63,594 nt of DNA from a virus. The notes below the pieces were generated by a model. That model saw only the letters and a program-made list of their open reading frames with translations. It had not been told where the DNA came from and searched no databases. The stretch is taken from IMG/VR virus record IMGVR_UViG_3300035212_000241, positions 1 through 63,594 of that record, one strand, 5' to 3'. Shown one piece after another: positions 7,851 to 50,809 of the stretch. The translations under genes and the position numbers were made by a program. Every line of letters starts with the position of its first letter. The stretch's first letter is position 1.

Positions 7851-10800
7851 TGGCAAACTTTTCAAGGAATTTTGTCGCTGGTAGAATGAATAAGACATTC
7901 GATGAGCGAGTTGTGCCTGAGGGCGAATACATTGACGCAATGAATGTCCGTATGGGTTCTACTGAGAAGTCAGAGGCCGGTGTCATTGAGAACACCAATG
8001 GCAATCTTCCGCTGACAGCTCTTGAGTACACTGGAAAGCCTTTGAGTCCATTCGCAAGATGTATCGGTGCTATTGAGGACAGCGCAAGAGAGACTATTTA
8101 TTGGTTTGTCCATGACTCACAGTTTGGGTCAAATACCGGTAAGCTTGACCTAATAGTGTCATATAATGTTGTCACTCAAGTCATTATATATCATGTCATC
8201 AGCGTTGACAATGGGGGCGGTGTTGACACTACTTTGAATTTCAATGAGCAGTACTTAATTACAGGGGTCAATCTCATTGAGGACCTGCTGTATTGGACTG
8301 ACGACTATAATCCTCCGAGGTTCATAAATGTCAAGACCGGCTACGCTAATCCTGATGGTGCAGGGATTGACTACAATGGTCAGCCTGACCTGCTGTATGA
8401 GACAATACAGGTTATTAAGAAGCCACCTACCGCAGCGCCTACGATAACACTTGTTGAGCTTTCAGACCAATCAAACTTCTTACAGGATAGATTTATTTGC
8501 TTTGCGTATAGGTATCAATATGCAAATGGGCAATATAGCGTAACGTCACAATGGACAGAGATAGCATTCTTCCCAAATGACTTTCAATTTAGTCCTGACA
8601 GTTATTTGAATGAAGGGATGATAAATAGATACAATGGTGTAAATGTATTTTTCAATACAGGTGGGCCATTAGTAATTGGCATTGACTTGCTATTTAAGGA
8701 AGCGACAGCCAATGTCATAAAGGTCATTGAGAAGTATAACAAGCAAGATGTTGGATGGCTTGATAATGTCACTCAGTCATATTTATTCAGCAATAGCAAA
8801 ATCTATACAATCCTACCGGAGTCAGAGCTACTTAGGTTATATGACAATGTGCCAAGACTAGCTAAGGCTCAGACAATTATGGGAAATAGGCTAATGTATG
8901 GCAACTATGTTGACGGCTATGACTTGATTGATGCCAATGGCCACCCAACTAACTTTGACTATTCTACGCAATTAGTTGTAGAGGAAATAATTCCAGAGCT
9001 TATACCAACTGTTACATATAGTAATGGCAATTACACAATAAATGGGCCGGTAACTATAAATGACTGTGTCTTAAATATAGATTTATCTGGAGTTTCATTA
9101 AAACAAGGGAATACACTAATAATAGATGCAACTTTAGAGGGTGTTTATTCCACAAATCTCCCTCCCATAACACCACCGTATGGATTTGTTGACATTTCAT
9201 TTTCATTTGTATTGCCAGCTGATTATACATCTGTGTACCAAATGGCATCAAGTGCAGAGTTTCAAGATGCAATAGGAACTGTTTTAAATATTAAGCCTAT
9301 ATACAATCCTATTCCAGGAGGTGATACATCTTGCGATGGATATACAATGACAGATGCAGTTAATTGCGTTGTAAACAACACTTTTGGAGTATTGCAAAAG
9401 TATGAAGGAGGAATAAATGGTCCATTAGAGCCAATTGCTATAACTGCATCTCCTTCAAGTAATGTTATAAGTCTTCAATTTACTGCAACAAGATATACTC
9501 AATTATTTTCAAATCCAAGTTTTAACAATAATTATATATATTATAGAATAACCACTGCGGTAGTATCTGTTCAATCAGTAAATTCTAATATTAAAAAAAG
9601 CTTGCACAGTAATAGAGACTATGAGATTGGCATTGTGTACATGGACGAATATTTAAGAGCTAGCCCAGCAAATGTTAGCTTATTTAATAACGAACACGTT
9701 CCATGCAGAAATTCACAATACGCAAATTCAATTACTGTAACTATACCGCCATCTCAGGTTGCGCCATATTGGGCTAAATTTTATAAGTTTGTATGTAAGG
9801 CAGACCAACATAGATACGAAACCATCTACTCAAATATATTTTTTTTAGACCCATTAACACAAGAAACATATTTCTTGTTGCAAGGTGAAAATGCAAGAAA
9901 AGTAGAAGAGGGGGATAGATTTATTGTAAAAGCTGACTCAGAGGGTCCTATGCAACAATGTACCTATGCAACTGTATTAGAGAAAGAATCTAAAGCAAGT
10001 GGATTTATACCAACAGTAATGCCTGCTCCTCCTGCTGGAGTTTACATGAAAATAAAAGCAGATGACTTCTCTACTGAGGTAGATCCATTAGCAGTAATCG
10101 CACCAGGTACTCGTTCTGCTATGCAGACGGCAGGTAATACTTGTCCGAAATTAAGTTATCCTATGGGTATCCCTGATCCTGCAATACCAGGTCAATTTAT
10201 AGATTATGACGTTCCTGCCGGTTCTATTATAATCTTTGATATTAGTTTTATTAGAGATGGGTATGGGGATAATCCATGCGAAACAAGAAGATATTTATTC
10301 AAAAAGCAATATGTAGCAGCCAACAGCTATACAAATATGTATGATTGGTTTATAAATGATAATATTGCCGCTACATTAAATGATGGAATTGCCACAGTTG
10401 GGACAACAACAGGGTCAGGGGGGCCTGGACTTATAGACAATCAATTTATCCCTGGTATAACTTCTCCTTTAAGTTCTTGTAGCCTTGGTACAAATTATTG
10501 GAAATTTTATAGAATCCCTTCTTCCCAATTACTGACTTTACAAATGTCAGGAACGCTACCTTGCACCGGAGCAAATACAAAAAAGAGACAATCAAAAGTA
10601 ATTGCCAATATACAAGTGTTTAGAGCTGTTGAAAATATTATTTTTGAAACAGAGCCAACGGACACACTGCCCGATGTCTTTTTTGAGAACGAACTATCAT
10701 TCCCGATTGATGCCAATGGCAATCACTTGTCGAATGGATTACTAGGCGACCAATCGCAGGACATTGCATTAGGTGTCCCTGGCATCATCCAAACAGGATT

Positions 10801-18869: not shown

Positions 18870-21800
18870 ATGGACGAACAATATATCTTAGACCTATTTA
18901 ATCAATTAGGCGGAGAGTCAAAATTTGGAAAATTTGATGACTTTAAAGAATTGATTACAACTGATAATTCTTATCAGCAAGATTTTTATAATGCTTTTGG
19001 TGCTAATACATTAGGTGAATTTAATGATTTCAAGTCATTAGTATCCGCTACTCAACAGCCCGAGCAACAACCTGTCGTGCAGCCTACTGTTAAAAAAAAA
19101 GACGATATGGATTCGGATTGGTTATTCGGGGATGGTTCATCGGAATCGGAGCCTTCGAAGACTGAGTCAGAGGCTGGCCTATTTGGTAGATTAGCACAAA
19201 AGGCATTTAGCACAAAGCAGCCGCAGCAGGAGCAAGTTGAACCAATAAAAAGGCCTGAAACCGTAGAAGAGGCATCAGGAACATGGGGGAACAGGGCAAA
19301 GAAAGAACAGCCGTTTTCTGAGCCGTTGTCTGACTATATGCAGGTATATGGTCCAAAAAAAGGAGAAGGAGTACTTGCTCCTACAAAGCCACTTGACTTT
19401 GTGGGTAGGATGACTCCTGAGTTAGTGAAAGAGCGAACACCTAAGTTCCTCGAAGATGGATTAAATGCTTTGACACCAAAGCAATTGGCATCATATGGAG
19501 CTAAAGGAGCGAAGGAAACATTTGACTACTATTTCAAGGATGCAGGATTTAAATTTGAGACCGATAGAGAATATGTAAGGGCCATATCGCCTGATGGTAA
19601 AGTATATACATACAACACAATTCTTCCTTCAAGAGAATCGCTTGACGAGTTTAAAAACTTTGTCAGAGAAAGTGCATTTAATAATCCTGAGATAGCTGAC
19701 AAGGCATACCTCTACGAGAAGGAGAATAAGAAATTCAAAACCAAGGAAGAGATTAACAACGAGGTAAAAACCATCAATGCTCAAGAAGAGGGATTTATGG
19801 GTGACTATAAAAAATTCCTCAACCTTCAAAGGGATATTAACGAGATAGAGGCTGACTTAAAAAGATTTAGAGATTCTGGTGAGCAGAATACACCAAAGTA
19901 TATTCAGACTGAGGCATACTTAAATGAGAGAAAGAAAGAACTTCAGGATTATGCCGGTACAATGGACAGTAAGCTAGTTGACTTGAAAGCCCAACGAACT
20001 CAGCTCGACAAAGCTGTTGGTAAGTACACTGAGTTCCAGGCTACCCAAGGTGACTTTGGTGGTAATATATACAGGACAATTGCTAATACTACATCAGGTA
20101 TATTCTCTAATTATTTGCGATTGGCTGTAACCAAAAGCGTTGACTTTATGCCCTTGAGTAGCGTCATGGGGGAAGAAGCTTACCAAGCCGCGCTAGACAA
20201 AAAGCTAAAAGAAAAAGGATATGAAGGTAATGTAGTACCTATAGATGTATTAAAAGAAGCAAAGGCAGAAATAGAGGCAGAAATTGGATCTAAAGCAAGA
20301 GATGATTTCAAAAAGGCAGCAATAACAGGTAAATATCAAGGGGAACAACTTAATAATGTACTTACGGTAAATGGTGTCAGAGAGTCGTTATCAGAGTTTA
20401 TGAATAAACCAATAACAAGCACTAAAGAATATTTACAAGAAAGACAAGAAAAAGGCAGTTTCATTGAAAGAGGACTATTGGGTTTTGCTGGATCATTACC
20501 TGCTATGGTAGGAGGTCCAGCATTGAGGTATATGAATATGTTCATGATGACAACCGATGGTGCCTTGCAAGAGATGGACAATAACCCTAACTTTGCAGAC
20601 GTAAGCGAGAATGAGAAGGAACTAGTAGCGTTACCAATTGGTGTCGTAGGCGCTGTATTGGAAGAGTTTGGTTTGAAAAATCTAAAGCTAGGTAAATCAA
20701 TTACGTCAAGTATATTAAAAACAGTACTTGGCAGAGTACCAGCAAATGCTACAGCATCAACCATAAGGAAGACTACATTTGATGTATTGGCAGAGAGGGG
20801 AATAAGGGCAGGTACTGCTTATGCAGGTGGTATTCTTTCAGAGATGGAGACAGGTCTTTTACAGCAAGCAAACGATTATGCTGTAAAGGATATCTATAGT
20901 GCTATGAGAGGAAAGAAGATGTTTGATAATCCTGCTTTTCTTACTGGTCAATATTTATATGATTTGTGGGATGCATCAAGGACTGAGGGAGTTGGTGCAG
21001 GTGTCATGAGTGTTCCGTATTCAATAGCAGCTGCATATCAAAAAGATGGCTTTCAAGCATTGGACGATGCGACATTTAAAATATTTGAGGACTTAGCCAA
21101 GGACAATGACAGCAGAAAGTTCTTTGTCACAAGTCTAAAGAATAAAATAAATCTTGGTGAGGTTACGCCTACGCAAGGTAAGCAGATGCTTGAGGCATAT
21201 GACCAAGCGTCCGGTATGATAGGCATGGTCCCTGATGAGATTACTGACCCTGAGAGCAGGAAGGTAGCGATGGACTTAATGAGCGAAAGAATAAGACTTG
21301 AGAAGCAGAAATACGGTAAAGATGAGGCATTGGCTAAGCCAATCCAGGATAAGATAAATCAGATTAACGAACAACTTACACAACTCACACAAGATGCCAT
21401 TCAAAAGCAAGCAGCAAGTCAAGTATCTCTACAGCCAGAAGCCGGAGCTGGCCAAGAAGTGGAGGTCGGAGGCCCCGAAGCAGGACCTCAAGCAGCTCCC
21501 AAGCAAGGTGTCCTCAGCCCCGAAGAAGAAGAAAAGTTAAGGAATAATAGAAGAGTTGATTTATTCCCTGAAGAATCTGAATTTGCAGATGTAATTGGAG
21601 GGTCAGGAAGAAATTCTTCCTTGTCAAATTACAGTGAGGTAAATGGTGTTGGTGTTGCATCATATACCAATCCTGACAATGGTCTTGTTGATGTTATCAT
21701 GTCCGGAACATCTGACAATGACTATGTCGGATATGTAAGGGTATATGAGAATGGGAAGCCAACTAATAGATGGACTTCAAAGATGTCCAATGAATCTGGC

Positions 21801-27800: not shown

Positions 27801-29261
27801 GCCGTGAACTACTTGTCAGGATTGCCAGAGCGTACAATGCTTATTACCTCATGGATGCCGACATTCAATAATGAGTTCAAGGATATTACAAACGAGAAGT
27901 TTGATATGGATAAGTTCAACTCAAGCGCTGAGTATAGGCAGAAGTATGGCAAGGCAATTAAAGAGGCTGCTGCTGTTGCTGACGCTCAGACTGAGAAGAT
28001 TATCGGATCAACAACAAAGGCAGGAGGAAGACGCGAAATAAGGATAGCTCCAAAGATACTTGCCAATGTAATTGGACTTGAGGGAACTGTTAAGAAAAAC
28101 TCAAGTGCTGGACAGATACTTGGCTTCTTTAGCAACTACCCATACAGAGAGGTCACTGAGTTCCTAAATGGTTTCAGAGAGGCTGCTGAGGTGTATAAAC
28201 AAGGAGGAAAGATAAAGTCAATTAGCCAATTACAAAAACCACTTGGTGTTGTAATAAACTTAGCTGCTTATGGCTTCTTATCGTCAGTTGTTTATGCTAT
28301 GAAACTTATGCTACTCGGTGATGATGAGGACGAGGAGAAAGGAGAAGCTATGCTAAAAGAGCTGATGACACCAAAGGGATTTATGGATGAGTTACAGGGG
28401 AACGCAATATCATTAGGTGCAAGCAAGTATGCTGCCGGTGGTAAAGCTATGTTGCAAATGTTCGCTACCATTGCTTACAACTCAACGAGCGATAAAGAGC
28501 AGAAAGCAAGAATCAAAAAGATTTTAAAGAATAGCGTATTCGTTGAGCCAATAGATGCTGAGAAAGTTCAAGGCTATGGTGGCAAAAATGAGCTGCTCGG
28601 TGCAATATCATCATATGTTCCTCAGGTTGTTTTATTCGCAAAAAGGATTGAGGAAACTATACAGACAGCTGGTGAGCTTAATTACATCTACAAGAAATTC
28701 CAAGATGGTGGCTTGAAGGCTTTGTCTGAGGATGAAGGCTTGGCAATATTAGCCATTGATGGTTTATTAAAAACAACACAAACTGTATTCAATTTTACCG
28801 GAACATCTCTACCAATGTACAACGACATAAAGATGTACATGAAAGGTGCCAAGAAAGAGGCAGGTGTTGGTAATATAAAACTTTCAGCCACTGAGAATCA
28901 GCACAAGAAAGCATTGCAGAATTATAAAAACGAGAAAGAGTTCAAGGAGAATGACCCTGAAGGATACCTTAAAGCTATTGACGAAGGTGGTTCACTTTAT
29001 GAGTATAAATTAGAGCAGAGCAAAAAAGAAGAAGAGGCAAATAAGGACAAGCCATTCAGAGGTATGAGCGAAGAAGCTTTCAAGAAAAAGTATCCAGAAG
29101 AATACATAGAGAAATATGGCCCAGATACTGAGTACTATGAAGAACAAAGAACTCCTGAGGCTATTGAGAAAAGAGCCGAAATGAGAGCGTTGCAGAAAAA
29201 AGAAAATGCAATAAAAGCAAAGAATAAAAAGAAACGTAATGAAAGAGATAAAGAGGAGTAA
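18870..29261 (+). CDS. Giant polyvalent virion protein with zincin and kinase-like domains
   Basis: This 3463-residue protein fills 16% of the genome and is probably packaged and ejected into the host. Visible parts: an N-terminal tandem motif (residues 1-60, GKFDDFKELI / GEFNDFKSLV); a first zincin-like domain with HEVFH at 1359-1363 and a possible third ligand Glu1423; a kinase-like PolyVal domain about 1590-1755 (GQGAESDVFVSN loop at 1621, D1748 in FYIDPI); a second zincin resembling LPD23 about 1825-2060 (HEIQH 1920-1924, GEVEARN at 2044); long helical regions; and a C-terminal hydrophobic segment (VVINLAAYGFLSSVVYAMKL) suited to membrane insertion. S(S/P)RQQK occurs at 1496, 1769 and 2087, exactly between domains. 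Confidence 0.75.
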   Translation: MDEQYILDLFNQLGGESKFGKFDDFKELITTDNSYQQDFYNAFGANTLGEFNDFKSLVSATQQPEQQPVVQPTVKKKDDMDSDWLFGDGSSESEPSKTESEAGLFGRLAQKAFSTKQPQQEQVEPIKRPETVEEASGTWGNRAKKEQPFSEPLSDYMQVYGPKKGEGVLAPTKPLDFVGRMTPELVKERTPKFLEDGLNALTPKQLASYGAKGAKETFDYYFKDAGFKFETDREYVRAISPDGKVYTYNTILPSRESLDEFKNFVRESAFNNPEIADKAYLYEKENKKFKTKEEINNEVKTINAQEEGFMGDYKKFLNLQRDINEIEADLKRFRDSGEQNTPKYIQTEAYLNERKKELQDYAGTMDSKLVDLKAQRTQLDKAVGKYTEFQATQGDFGGNIYRTIANTTSGIFSNYLRLAVTKSVDFMPLSSVMGEEAYQAALDKKLKEKGYEGNVVPIDVLKEAKAEIEAEIGSKARDDFKKAAITGKYQGEQLNNVLTVNGVRESLSEFMNKPITSTKEYLQERQEKGSFIERGLLGFAGSLPAMVGGPALRYMNMFMMTTDGALQEMDNNPNFADVSENEKELVALPIGVVGAVLEEFGLKNLKLGKSITSSILKTVLGRVPANATASTIRKTTFDVLAERGIRAGTAYAGGILSEMETGLLQQANDYAVKDIYSAMRGKKMFDNPAFLTGQYLYDLWDASRTEGVGAGVMSVPYSIAAAYQKDGFQALDDATFKIFEDLAKDNDSRKFFVTSLKNKINLGEVTPTQGKQMLEAYDQASGMIGMVPDEITDPESRKVAMDLMSERIRLEKQKYGKDEALAKPIQDKINQINEQLTQLTQDAIQKQAASQVSLQPEAGAGQEVEVGGPEAGPQAAPKQGVLSPEEEEKLRNNRRVDLFPEESEFADVIGGSGRNSSLSNYSEVNGVGVASYTNPDNGLVDVIMSGTSDNDYVGYVRVYENGKPTNRWTSKMSNESGNKENFKTMISEVQSRLPENHEYTESTNISIDGVRVYSNQLNRGYEVLTDANGNPVTNTVTLNAASVEGLQQAATQEEKQSLYDNMTVTTREQFNALRDKITALMPNARVLWNQANNTVQIQLPVLVQSKKATAAETTPAQKTFEQRKSEIEKITDPEQRKVAEIEFIMSNLMSGVGEASANKIREYADRIISGKETRDQVIQGLPKSFVDGIDQLLAAQQAPTETTATATPTATEATPVEQFTEQDRARKAELEEAMRKADKRRKNITVGETTMPKAEAKAELDALNQKEQAVIEAEVQAIEKLISAPEQKDKGKIKQAVTNAAKAIAKILPKTKIVIHETNDDYVNATGDTDGASGIYIPSAEGGTIHVNLSNANTRTVGHEVFHAILLRGIKTDAEAQRLAKAMIGAVAKSLKQSGANQELLNELEDFLSNYEENIQNEEYLAEVFGYLADGYPQLDVPAQSIINRFIERIMKLFGLKPMTDKEVIDFMNTLSRKVAAGEEITEKEVGITKKTKGISSRQQKDNNTVNKEVSNTEKKQSTIDKFLSWFKKDNKDTKTELLPKNKDENEGLLNRLSQEEERGRESSSSANVSATIVAEGVHRANSRKSAKEIKKQEEIELEAHAKESGFWIDPSEFENKEPHGQGAESDVFVSNDGTYVTKIKANDLHYSSWLDFLDSIALHNSFEHNARYILKGFTKYKNKFRAVLEQPFIRNSREATRKEIDEDLLKKGFKSRGLGVYINDNTGVFVGDLLQETGNALIVDDVIFYIDPIIKPNTYSLGFNGKRKVSLSSRQQKVNKEVQDIEQLPAARKQIIGENAKLAQEVRDNLQVARNMETAGKDAKTIRITTGWEKGKDNKWRYEIDDADVDEVELADMWEDGVESNLENLLLDSELLKLYPQLKDIKIKYTEYGKVANYDDNKNKISIPRDYGYDTRFKSVLLHEIQHAIQVIEGFALGGSPEQMITPNDVLAQLVRELPNTDREQRRKIKEAYQQEGLTRFPIFPTVFDIQSDSPDKLDDFIEKLEILTKLFPNVDSYKKLQEGLEIRLMEMGGGDISFEKYQKIAGEVEARNVQTRMDMTPEQRRQTTLQETEDVAREDQVIFFDTNLSPRQQKSKNNQEIIKQARANGKSEAGIRAYFKKNGLSDIEIDILFDEEKGAGKKISLTEETLPGYTKLMNRINDIIARGRRKGKTDDDIMKGVIANVESRSPEYANATDQQREQIIRDIRKLFGKKEKAAPSAAKITGKPKPKKVTVDEMTALKDQLRLEARAAREAKGDLNAKRKMLAAAIKEMKKKGSISVRQAKALINRINAVNLDNPVMVERLLTYAENIFNDADYDTRVQEVRKLQEQVKKVNHVSMRDTVREFASINPERIPADKLLDYIQALDDMNTRAPFYEKMNDMFDEVMSYRSESKEFDAIKTFQALIDKLESIAINQVKSVEDYVALVRDINSFKRKAYQLLQNGDITQDQYDQAIENVGKDQAAVEKKYEKELTALKKGLVQEIMGLRPEVHPDFTPEEAALINKYLELSESDLESLSPEDLYILNDLLNNIKEDVQLDYYRLSEIVSKAYTNAGGQKLAEQLNESKFNKSSDEGKKLLLEQESAFWEGLLGLGRATSGALQKFIVSPFNRAIASFENFMKDGYSEFSKLKKKYRMKDYNMHRLGVFTTYLQEYMAQFDPANKNVKDIGKRDWFGEILGNEGMRDGYKSAKPSAKRLIGMGDTELKTIEKIYKSLPKDANGKVDPKAVYDSFMANDGKFFTKQEKAFFDKVMEWKQKNLTTKQKAANEMSGMPFKEIPFHMMRVRLDRGAKQISPKAEGGAGKVRIEAGTGKERAKQTVGPIMTNFEQLFTENLEQTARNYYLREAINDINNTLSVAKKGLDKNKTGLFNTIPGTISDALNFEFDKTDSQVIFKSLLAARAAETLFNPIRTAVELTSAFLSYPFRAKTPKGYRELFGKQGKMKKLLDFTDSPIRLRDNINKAIDISDGRIKPLGKFEKAVNYLSGLPERTMLITSWMPTFNNEFKDITNEKFDMDKFNSSAEYRQKYGKAIKEAAAVADAQTEKIIGSTTKAGGRREIRIAPKILANVIGLEGTVKKNSSAGQILGFFSNYPYREVTEFLNGFREAAEVYKQGGKIKSISQLQKPLGVVINLAAYGFLSSVVYAMKLMLLGDDEDEEKGEAMLKELMTPKGFMDELQGNAISLGASKYAAGGKAMLQMFATIAYNSTSDKEQKARIKKILKNSVFVEPIDAEKVQGYGGKNELLGAISSYVPQVVLFAKRIEETIQTAGELNYIYKKFQDGGLKALSEDEGLAILAIDGLLKTTQTVFNFTGTSLPMYNDIKMYMKGAKKEAGVGNIKLSATENQHKKALQNYKNEKEFKENDPEGYLKAIDEGGSLYEYKLEQSKKEEEANKDKPFRGMSEEAFKKKYPEEYIEKYGPDTEYYEEQRTPEAIEKRAEMRALQKKENAIKAKNKKKRNERDKEE

Positions 29262-29631
29262 TTATACGCTGCTACTAAGCAAAAACCCATGCGAAATCTT
29301 CATCCACTTTGCAGAGGAGGAGATGCATGGGTTGAGCTTCAGAGAATGTGTGATACACACGAACAATGCAAAGCAGGCATATATTGCCGGATTCTCAAAC
29401 TATGTCCCGAAGGATAGTGGTGACTACAAGCATGGCGATCCGTTCTTTGTGTTCATCAATCTAACAAGATGCACCTCACCTATTGAGACAATGCTTACGA
29501 TCAACCATGAGATGATACATAGAGCATTTGAGCTGTATGATTGGGACATTGACAAAGAGGAAGAGATTGTAACCTGGGCAGAGAATGAGACGCGCGAGGT
29601 ATATAACCTATTGAAGCGGATACTCAAGTAG
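29239..29631 (+). CDS. Small HExxH metallopeptidase-like protein
   Basis: This 130-residue protein carries NHEMIHRAFELYDW (HExxH near residues 90-94) followed by a glutamate-rich helix (EEEIVTWAENE) that could supply the third zinc ligand. The fold resembles minimal zincins. It overlaps the end of the giant gene by 23 nt and is the last gene of the rightward virion operon. It could process virion proteins or act in the host. Its 3' end overlaps the convergent 29608-29790 gene by 24 nt. Confidence 0.65.
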   Translation: MKEIKRSNYTLLLSKNPCEIFIHFAEEEMHGLSFRECVIHTNNAKQAYIAGFSNYVPKDSGDYKHGDPFFVFINLTRCTSPIETMLTINHEMIHRAFELYDWDIDKEEEIVTWAENETREVYNLLKRILK

Positions 29632-29790: not shown

Positions 29791-29816
29791 AATGCTGTTT
29801 TAAAGTGATTAAAAAA

Positions 29817-29932
29817 TAGTCAGGACAGGATTCGAACCTGTATCTTTCGGCAAGACTTAACGTATATTCTTAGGTCATGACTCCTTACCTTTTACCGCTC
29901 ACCGAATGCTTTACCAATTTCACCACCTGACT
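29817..29932 (-). tRNA. tRNA-like RNA with a 51-nt anticodon-loop region
   Basis: Read on the minus strand, a 7-bp acceptor stem (AGTCAGG with CCTGACT), a D-arm whose loop contains TTGGTAAA, a perfect 5-bp anticodon stem (TTCGG with CCGAA, 29902-29906 and 29846-29850) and a perfect 5-bp T-arm with loop TTCGAAT are all present. Between the anticodon-stem strands are 51 nt (29851-29901) where 7 are normal, so the anticodon cannot be assigned. The insert contains AGGT...ACCT and GTCATGAC inverted repeats. No 3' CCA is encoded. It may be an intron-bearing tRNA, a disrupted tRNA, or a tRNA mimic. Confidence 0.6.
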
Positions 29933-32249: not shown

Positions 32250-32996
32250 TTAATCTATATTACAAAAACATTCAATGTCATTATCGAACAAATTTAATTG
32301 TTCTTTTGACATTTTTAGTAATTCACTTACTGAATAGTTTTTATTAAAAGTTGAACCTATAAAATCTTCCATTTTAATCCACCAATCTGCAATTTGTGGC
32401 ATTTCTTTTAAAATATTTTGTTTTTTACTAATTTTTTTATGAAAACACAAATCACAGTTACCTAAATGTGTATGTATATTTAAATCAAAAGGATGCTGTT
32501 TCCAAAATTCTTTAATATGATTTTCCGTTATATTGTCCTTGTATAATGGCATTACATTTTCCCATTTATTCCTATTAGAACTTTTTAATTTAAAATATCT
32601 TTTAGGCTCATCTTTTCGGATTCCTAACATCATATCAACATCATCTAAATTTACACTCTTAGATTTTAAATACCTTTGAATTGTTTTTATTTTTAATTGC
32701 AAAGTACAAGTTCGTGTCATTTCATTAGGTATAAACTTAGACTTTTTAATAAGCTGCTCAAATGGTTTGCCATCTCTATTTGCTGTTTCAAAATTTACAA
32801 CTTTAAATTTTTCTTTGTTATCAGTTGTATATTCAAGCCAGACAATTTCCTTGTCAAAGTATTCGCCACACTTACGAATAAAATCTAAAGTTCCATCTGC
32901 TTCTTTTCCTGTGTTGCAAAATATAGCTAAGTCAAATTCATAATTAGCAAGCATATATGCAGATGTCCTACCACCGCTAAATGATAATACTTTCAT
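32250..32996 (-). CDS. PAPS-reductase-like PP-loop protein
   Basis: This 248-residue protein begins with the PP-loop SGGRTSAYM (residues 7-15), which binds ATP pyrophosphate, and has TRTCTLQLKI (Cys97) and CDLC (181-184), typical of phosphoadenosine-phosphosulfate-reductase-like proteins including those in nucleic-acid thiolation and defence systems. Its DNA is clearly more A/T-rich than the neighbouring helicase and methyltransferase genes, which suggests recent acquisition. It overlaps the helicase stop. A nucleotide or tRNA modification role is possible; sulfate reduction in a phage is less likely. Confidence 0.8.
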   Translation of the reverse strand: MKVLSFSGGRTSAYMLANYEFDLAIFCNTGKEADGTLDFIRKCGEYFDKEIVWLEYTTDNKEKFKVVNFETANRDGKPFEQLIKKSKFIPNEMTRTCTLQLKIKTIQRYLKSKSVNLDDVDMMLGIRKDEPKRYFKLKSSNRNKWENVMPLYKDNITENHIKEFWKQHPFDLNIHTHLGNCDLCFHKKISKKQNILKEMPQIADWWIKMEDFIGSTFNKNYSVSELLKMSKEQLNLFDNDIECFCNID

Positions 32997-49165: not shown

Positions 49166-50809
49166 ATGTTTGACAATTCAGGTTACACTCCAAAGGACTT
49201 AGTCTTTGGGGACGAGGGACGCAAGCGATTGATAGATGGCATCAGAAAGATTGCCGCTGCTGTTAAGTCCACTTTAGGCCCAGGGGGCAACACGGTGTTA
49301 ATTGAGTCACCGCATCACACGCATAGCATTACGGTTACCAAGGATGGTGTCACTGTCGCAAAGGCGGTTGACCTGTTTGATCCGGTTGAGAACCTTGCGG
49401 TCAGGATGATGAAAGAGGCAGCTGAGCGTACCGCTACCAATGCAGGGGATGGGACGACCACCTCAATCATTTTGACAGAGGCTATGGTCCTTGAGGGGAC
49501 TAGGCTATTGACACCTGAGGTGAACCGTACTGAGGTGTTGAGACACTTGAGTGTTATGTGCAACGAGGTGGTTAGGCAATTGGCCTCAAAGGCTAAGAAG
49601 GTGACGAACGCAATGCTTGTTGACGTAGCGACAATATCAGCGAATAATGACAGGGAGCTGGGTAAGATTATTGCTGAGCTGTACAGAGAGGTAGGGCGTA
49701 CTGGTATTGTCACTGTTGAGAAGTCGCAGACGAGTGAGACATACTCTGAGACGACTAAGGGTCTCAAGGTAGCAAGGGGCTATCTGTCAAATTTGTTCGT
49801 CAATGACCATAAGAAGGACGAGTGCGTCTTTGAGGATGTGATGGTATTGGTTGCTGACACTGAGATAAGTAATATCTTGCAGATTGAGGCGGTGTTAAAG
49901 CCAATTATATCTGAGAATAAGAAGCTGTTGATCATTGCGCCATGTGGCACCAATGTGGTGAATACGCTTGCGGCTAATGTGGTGAAGGGTAATGTCAAGA
50001 TCTGCGCGGTGCCGCCACCCAATTTTGGGTATAAGCAGCATGAGCTGATGCAGGACATTGCGCTGAGCGTTGGCGCGACATACTTCAGCGAGAAGACCGG
50101 TGACGACTTGTCGCTTATCAACTACGGTGACTTGGGCCATGCTGCCAAGGTCATTGTCTCGGTTGACCAGACAATAATCCTAAAGTCAAATGCGAGGGTT
50201 AAGACTGACGCGGTGGAGGAGAGGGTCAAGCAGCTATGGTCTGCTCATGCCATTGCTAAGCGAAAAGCTGACAAGGACTTCTTGTTGGAGCGCATTGCGT
50301 CACTGACAGGGGGCATTGGTGTCATCTATGTCGGTGGTAATACTGACCTGGAGCAGAAGGAGCTGTATGACCGTGTTGACGATGCTGTCTGTGCGGTGCG
50401 CTCTGCTTTGGAGGAGGGGATATTGCCAGGGGCCGGCAAGGCTATCTACGAGATTGACCATACGAGGTTGTTAGGTGATGGCAATAACCATGACCAGAAT
50501 GTAGCATGGCATATCATGGACGCAGCGCTTGAGGCTCCAATCAGGCAGATACTCACCAATGTGGGGCTTGACTTTGACGCAGTGTATTGCAGGTATGTCC
50601 CTGAGGGTGAGGATATGGTGCCTGATGGGCATGGCTATAATGTCAAGACCGGTGAGTTTGGGGACCTCATCAAGATGGGTGTCGTTGACCCATTGAAAGT
50701 GACTCGAAGTGCGCTGCAAAATGCAGTCAGTGTGGCATCAACTATTTTAAGCACCAATGCTATTATCACGATGGGTCGTAGCTTTGAGATAGCAAATGTA
50801 ACCAAATAA
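49166..50809 (+). CDS. groL: Chaperonin GroEL (Cpn60)
   Basis: This 547-residue protein is a full-length group I chaperonin. The N-terminal equatorial domain has KSTLGPGG (residues 34-41) and GDGTTT (94-99, ATP hydrolysis). The apical and second equatorial domains follow, with RVDDAVCAVRSALEEGILPGAG (Asp406 equals the catalytic aspartate of E. coli GroEL). The Gly/Met C-terminal repeat of bacterial GroEL is absent, as in other phage chaperonins. It probably folds large virion proteins, with the phage GroES gene nearby (52270). It is co-transcribed with the aaRS-like gene. Confidence 0.95.
   Translation: MFDNSGYTPKDLVFGDEGRKRLIDGIRKIAAAVKSTLGPGGNTVLIESPHHTHSITVTKDGVTVAKAVDLFDPVENLAVRMMKEAAERTATNAGDGTTTSIILTEAMVLEGTRLLTPEVNRTEVLRHLSVMCNEVVRQLASKAKKVTNAMLVDVATISANNDRELGKIIAELYREVGRTGIVTVEKSQTSETYSETTKGLKVARGYLSNLFVNDHKKDECVFEDVMVLVADTEISNILQIEAVLKPIISENKKLLIIAPCGTNVVNTLAANVVKGNVKICAVPPPNFGYKQHELMQDIALSVGATYFSEKTGDDLSLINYGDLGHAAKVIVSVDQTIILKSNARVKTDAVEERVKQLWSAHAIAKRKADKDFLLERIASLTGGIGVIYVGGNTDLEQKELYDRVDDAVCAVRSALEEGILPGAGKAIYEIDHTRLLGDGNNHDQNVAWHIMDAALEAPIRQILTNVGLDFDAVYCRYVPEGEDMVPDGHGYNVKTGEFGDLIKMGVVDPLKVTRSALQNAVSVASTILSTNAIITMGRSFEIANVTK

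Follow-up and report, generated by a model that had tools for sequence, protein, structure and literature searches.

The usual explanation for tRNAs encoded by phages is that they supplement the host's codon supply or replace tRNAs that have been cleaved. In transfer-messenger RNA (tmRNA), a tRNA-like domain is joined to a non-tRNA domain which replaces the anticodon arm. Phage T4 carries the rnaC 'species 1' RNA in its tRNA cluster (NC_000866, 70908-71046; L334, 1409-1547, minus strand), annotated as a 'small, stable RNA' with no function given. Plant viruses make tRNA mimics, the tRNA-like structures, which belong to viral RNA genomes (reviewed in PMC5723415), and HDV-like theta ribozymes found beside phage tRNAs are self-cleaving (PMC10879173). 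Here we describe a tRNA-like RNA encoded in IMG/VR virus record IMGVR_UViG_3300035212_000241, the whole 63,594 nt of which were analysed and are referred to as the window. This RNA is probably an anticodon-less tRNA-like RNA (hereafter TLS) belonging to a large phage family, in which strong constraint keeps the acceptor, T arm, elbow and discriminator base A73.

The tRNA-like RNA of the window

The RNA is encoded on the minus strand, with its 5' end at 29932 and its 3' end (A73) at 29817, and consists of the following parts.

29817..29932, minus strand: whole tRNA-like RNA, 116 nt (Rfam tRNA 44.8 bits; model R1 63.4 bits; relatives L280, L442, L443, L312)
29926..29932, minus strand: acceptor 5' strand AGTCAGG, 7/7 pairs with 29818-29824
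29925-29924, minus strand: U8 G9, preceding the D arm
29908..29923, minus strand: D arm GTGAAATTGGTAAAGC, stem of 2 bp, loop with G18G19 (Rfam and R1 models, alignment with relatives)
29898..29906, minus strand: P2 5' strand TTCGGTGAG, in place of the anticodon stem, partner strand 29846-29854; pairs 1 and 3 show compensatory changes among relatives
29855..29897, minus strand: 43-nt loop domain, kept on L280/L443, L442 and L312 (RNAalifold)
29883-29885 with 29872-29874, minus strand: small hairpin RGG/CCY in the loop domain (RNAalifold)
29846..29854, minus strand: P2 3' strand CTTGCCGAA (shuffle test, alignment of relatives, RNAalifold)
29842..29845, minus strand: variable region AGAT, 4 nt (from the sequence)
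29825..29841, minus strand: T arm ACAGG-TTCGAAT-CCTGT, 5/5 pairs, two of them compensatory in L312
29817..29824, minus strand: acceptor 3' strand CCTGACT and discriminator A73 (covariance-model alignments)
29811..29816, minus strand: U6 run directly 3' of A73, possible 3' end or terminator (from the sequence)

The order from 5' to 3' is therefore AGTCAGG-TG-GTGAAATTGGTAAAGC-A-TTCGGTGAG-(43 nt)-CTTGCCGAA-AGAT-ACAGG-TTCGAAT-CCTGT-CCTGACT-A, followed by U6, a run that a terminator scan did not flag. A preliminary description of this stretch had placed a tRNA-like RNA with perfect acceptor, anticodon and T stems at the same coordinates; the position was right, though the strand is minus. The acceptor and T stems are indeed fully paired, and the T loop, TTCGAAT, is canonical as it had said. 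The supposed anticodon stem, TTCGG/CCGAA, pairs 5/5 with exactly the 51 nt between its strands that had been counted, but is really not a 5-bp stem: TTCGGTGAG/CTTGCCGAA form an uninterrupted 9-bp helix (P2) around 43 nt, the best of 100 shuffles of the insert (p about 0.01). Because P2 encloses 43 nt, the RNA has no 7-nt anticodon loop. Its variable region has only 4 nt and is not the long arm of a class II tRNA-Leu. Set against canonical tRNA (RF00005), the 7-bp acceptor, the T arm with a TTCRANN loop and A/G73 are present, whereas the 5-bp anticodon stem and 7-nt loop with U33 and anticodon are absent.

The tRNA model of Rfam 15 matches the RNA with an E-value of 2.7e-6 and skips 50 nt in the anticodon arm. 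Covariance model R1, built from 23 other phage RNAs with the window excluded from training, matches with an E-value of 1.8e-17, and therefore the window RNA is not a product of chance. ARAGORN run without introns reported nothing at this position. The folding energy of the whole molecule is unremarkable (z -0.75). The small RGG/CCY hairpin is predicted independently by RNAalifold, as are the acceptor, P2 and the T arm. The support for the structure is comparative, rather than from plain folding energy.

In local BLAST searches with the central region, the 51-nt domain was found at 91-93% identity in L280, L443 and L442, which are contigs of 128, 103 and 40 kb, and at 83% in L312; the L443 RNA is identical to that of L280. 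An exact 18-mer from the insert had missed these relatives owing to substitutions, and a degenerate pattern later confirmed three contigs. The domain is present on contigs of different sizes, and therefore moves between phages of different sizes. Across the four distinct sequences (the window and three relatives), 97.1% of alignment cells are paired and double changes occur in five pairs (one in the acceptor, two in P2 and two in the T arm). Shuffles reach this result in 0-3 of 500 cases, and structures slid along the alignment drop to 32-47% paired. The preliminary description had made its case depend on compensatory changes in relatives; these were found, and the idea survived. Within the loop domain, an 8-nt palindrome, GTCATGAC (window 29872-29885, minus strand), reads GTCGCGAC in L312 with self-complementarity kept, as a single event, and judged by sequence this could possibly be a self-pairing loop or a site of dimerisation.

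The TLS family, its central domains and its phages

Family counts from the collection scans given here are among the matches listed, and several depend on finders that require pairing. In all, 364 distinct RNAs have the acceptor AGTCAGG/CCTGACTA, close variants included, together with the T arm and the elbow, and their median total length is 104 nt. G53, TTC and A58 are invariant in these, and C61 (99.7%), the D-loop GG (94%), U8 (93%) and A73 (91%) are nearly so, the T-loop and acceptor being partly required by the finder. The window RNA shares the features by which the family is recognised, namely the acceptor (elsewhere also a compensated equivalent), A73, the T arm, a D arm with GG and the absence of a canonical anticodon arm.

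An exact 22-mer covering the T arm and 3' acceptor occurs in more than 120 viral contigs of IMG/VR, mostly with AGTCAGG 70-180 nt upstream and usually with a Leu-like D arm, and the centres differ between loci. The same 22-mer is found on six contigs of genome_contigs (257 Gb of prokaryotic sequence), all six from metagenome-assembled genomes, and among 150 genomes of the genus Flavobacterium it is found only in the bait genome. TLS are nearly restricted to viral contigs. Counts from an early set of 138 RNAs were biased, as both the T arm and the 3' strand of the acceptor had been fixed; scanning with the D arm only removes this bias. In that scan, 115 of 125 matches have a downstream T arm and six or more of the seven acceptor pairs; AGTCAGG/CCTGACT is present in 58 of 100 distinct bodies, most others have other, compensated acceptors, and some of the remainder are ordinary tRNA-Leu.

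In large phages, TLS are interspersed with canonical tRNAs of the same orientation. C74 is encoded in 270/283 non-canonical (TLS) RNAs and in 338/340 canonical RNAs of the same loci, so 3' processing is probably shared. One candidate from an isolate-derived contig (L257) turned out to be an ordinary tRNA-Leu. Separately, tRNA-like RNAs with other acceptors and no recognised anticodon arm were seen in the crAss-like phage cr4_1 (L131, NC_055893, 67844-67923) and in a phage of 735 kb (L130, LR756501, 204050-204160).

An anticodon signal is lacking in the TLS family. When ARAGORN was run without introns on the 138 members it made 28 calls, against a mean of 24.9 (range 20-35) with the central region shuffled, and with introns of up to 300 nt it made 95, against a mean of 85.6 (range 74-94). 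As the calls are about equal to those on shuffles, the central regions are generally not hidden anticodon arms. The anticodons that ARAGORN calls in TLS members are scattered, although a small number of members may really be tRNAs.

The central regions themselves are highly diverse, with 311 of them falling into 226 clusters unrelated in sequence, 181 of which are singletons. In the largest subfamily (11 distinct sequences), for which helices were partly set by hand since MAFFT misplaced one column in subfamily A, the acceptor is paired in 77/77 cells with eight double-change cells in five pairs (0/2000 shuffles). The D stem (33/33, p 0.012), an inner hairpin (44/44, p 0.002) and a basal helix (84/88, p 0.06) are also paired, and basal helices are compensated in four other groups.

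Central domains are exchanged between TLS. Three loci near the primase-like gene (L373, L379 and L391) have almost identical immediate flanks and unrelated centres (15-47% identity; 117, 108 and 70 nt). Likewise, three central domains are combined with one D-loop insertion (GTGTGCCCTGTT..), and two of the three are found with a plain D loop as well, so D-loop and central modules swap independently. The insertion GTGTGCCCTGTTATTACGGGAAGTACAT is present in L110, L324 and L392, with one variant base in L324.

Cultivated elemo phages offer a further case. In elemoA_7-9A and elemoC_14-1A, a 76-nt RNA annotated as tRNA-Ala has a central arm consisting of an 8-bp stem with a GCAA cap, and sibling elemo genomes with ~99% identical flanks carry a canonical tRNA-Met(CAU) at that locus instead. 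The two alternatives were compared at NC_055852.1 (L438), 10495-10570, minus strand, and MT497076.1 (L439), 20944-21017. The short RNA has the acceptor TCCAAAG/CTTTGGA and scores 38 bits with R1. Given this different acceptor and low score, it is likely a candidate relative of TLS by architecture and not by sequence. Elemo phages which differ at this one locus (tRNA-Met or TLS-like RNA) and share a host strain (Flavobacterium sp. BAL314) would be a ready test system.

Relatives of the window phage were found through its terminase and primase-like protein, and none was found through the C-terminus of its 3463-aa protein. By terminase, the nearest is the metagenomic podovirus MW202828 (75.5%), followed by Flavobacterium elemo phages and Cellulophaga phages. 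The stretch that holds the window RNA is variable and lies where minus-strand genes converge on the end of the gene for the 3463-aa protein. In L335, the closest relative when primase-like proteins are compared (89%), the corresponding stretch is 466 nt, versus 1558 in the window, and is without such an RNA. A tRNA-like RNA does flank the end of the giant gene in MW202828, but it is a different one, with the acceptor AGTGCAG/CTGCACT and another central domain. Such RNAs or tRNAs are carried by 25 of 80 loci of the relatives, and R1 matches 18 of 30 of their whole records, the weaker of these matches possibly being ordinary tRNAs. Other genes of the window include a 130-aa frame with an HExxH motif (HEMIH), which overlaps the end of the giant gene (29239-29631, plus strand) and is without a Pfam or PHROG match, a PAPS-reductase-like protein (32250-32996, minus strand) and a phage-encoded GroEL-like chaperonin (49166-50809, plus strand).

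Proposed function and rival explanations

TLS would be transcribed with their neighbours and processed by host RNase P and the tRNA 3' machinery, with completion of CCA. The matured RNA could then bind a protein which normally handles tRNA and reads its acceptor or elbow. As the elbow and acceptor are fixed and the anticodon arm is replaceable, such a recogniser should read the top half of tRNA. The anticodon arm is replaced by any of a large set of exchangeable central domains, many of them structured, and specificity would come from the domain swapped in. TLS look unable to decode, yet every element of the tRNA elbow is kept along with a specific acceptor, and the benefit to phages must then come from tRNA shape alone. 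We tentatively propose that TLS may act as a mimic or decoy which binds an acceptor- or elbow-recognising protein, such as EF-Tu, leucyl-tRNA synthetase (LeuRS), an enzyme of tRNA modification or a defence toxin directed at tRNA, and that the central domain may adjust which partner is bound. LeuRS is one candidate since host tRNA-Leu genes have exactly the D arm, TGGCGGAATTGGTAGACGC, that is common in TLS. If TLS were decoys for toxins directed at the acceptor or elbow, this would account for their diversification. Of the three options in the preliminary description (an unusual intron, a disrupted tRNA or a tRNA mimic), the mimic is the one supported.

Several observations weigh against placing the window RNA in such a family or against a decoy role. 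Its D stem is weak, with G10-C25 and U11-G24 and no third pair, so that it falls short of the canonical 3-4 bp, and it is among the few family exceptions in which the encoded C74 is missing, with a U run in its place. Over 223 clusters, the folding advantage of real centres over dinucleotide-shuffled ones is modest (mean z -0.77, t -11.8). The central domains of L101, L051, L067, L111 and L013 look by eye like H-type pseudoknots, but only 6/108 sequences reach p<0.05 in a per-sequence test, and double changes were not found in these candidates. Some of the helices used for TLS were picked by eye. Lastly, no gene partner of TLS was identified.

A rather unlikely alternative to the decoy is that of a scaffolded regulatory RNA, in which the top half serves only for 5' and 3' processing and stability and the central domain does the work as an antisense or protein-binding small RNA. 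This would suit central domains which are discrete modules, kept across unrelated contigs and exchanged independently of the D-loop module. However, a bare scaffold needs no particular acceptor, yet AGTCAGG/CCTGACT is dominant, and no match of the window RNA longer than 11-12 nt was found elsewhere in its genome. LeuRS can do without the anticodon, and with A73 kept and the Leu-type D arm, TLS might instead be aminoacylated, most likely by LeuRS, for a non-decoding use such as amino-acid donation or the draining of charged tRNA. We consider this unlikely, as the acceptor is unlike those of the host tRNA-Leu genes seen (A1-U72 and not G1-C72), other D arms are found in many members, and the D stem in the window is only 2 bp. 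Replacement at the same site between conserved flanks, together with the shared D-loop module, might also reflect a recombination cassette or selfish spread, the top half being kept mainly as a site of homologous exchange by RNAs which do little. This is improbable, since compensatory changes in the acceptor, D, T and P2 helices indicate selection on RNA structure and not on DNA identity.

The remaining two readings would make the RNA a tRNA after all. In one, splicing would remove ~44 extra nt and leave tRNA-Leu(AAG) or a similar tRNA; with introns allowed, ARAGORN can model the window RNA as a Leu(AAG) tRNA interrupted by a 38-nt intron. Such an intron is very improbable, because intron calls on the family hardly exceed those on shuffled centres, the 9-bp P2 would need to be broken, Rfam cmscan of the window and 11 TLS-bearing loci gave tRNA only and no group I intron, and the virus record has no match to RtcB (PF01139) or RNA_ligase (PF09414). 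A decaying tRNA gene would account for the weak D stem and for the lack of a second tRNA-like gene in the window (none was found by ARAGORN or own-genome matching). It is scarcely credible given perfect acceptor and T stems, covariation in the acceptor, T and P2 helices, and a central domain still closely similar on unrelated contigs.

Comparison with known systems

Rfam 15 has no family for TLS beyond tRNA, and no description of them was found in the open-access literature, subscription journals and most preprints being outside the search; the family is apparently so far undescribed. Annotation tools call TLS 'tRNA-Undet' or give them a random isotype, or miss them, and as a result studies of codon supply and recoding may miscount. 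We tentatively suggest that TLS may be an unnamed, phage-restricted RNA class, in phages from ~60 kb to a 735-kb genome, which combines a fixed tRNA top half with exchangeable centres and is perhaps a diversifying arsenal of decoys against tRNA-targeting defences or host factors.

TLS differ from the tRNA-like structures of plant viruses in being stand-alone genes of DNA phages. Theta ribozymes, like TLS, are phage RNA elements tied to tRNA genes, but they do not replace an anticodon arm, and Rfam scans of the window and TLS loci gave no match to ribozyme families. The replacement of the anticodon arm by another domain is a likeness to tmRNA, from which TLS differ in having a D arm and in being far shorter. 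Neither a tRNA-like domain without a D stem nor a tag reading frame was found; ARAGORN reports no tmRNA in the window and Rfam calls tRNA only. With class II tRNA-Leu, TLS have in common the D arm TGGCGGAATTGGTAGACGC, A73, U8, G18G19 and the T loop, and they differ in having no anticodon arm, no Leu-type variable arm and a different acceptor.

T4 rnaC resembles TLS most closely in kind, as a phage RNA of ~140 nt from a tRNA cluster, with no evident anticodon arm, a sound T arm (CCGGG-TTCGAAT-CCCGG) and a 3' end that resembles an acceptor strand. Unlike TLS, its acceptor is imperfect by eye (CGATTCG/CGTTTCG, with apparent U-U mismatches) and no D arm is recognised. At E<=5 its only Rfam match is a sub-threshold one to tRNA-Sec, and an R1 search of the T4 record gave three matches at 72.1-72.5 kb, at tRNA genes, and none at rnaC. 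While a sequence relation to TLS is thus not demonstrated, the T4 species 1 RNA is their nearest precedent.
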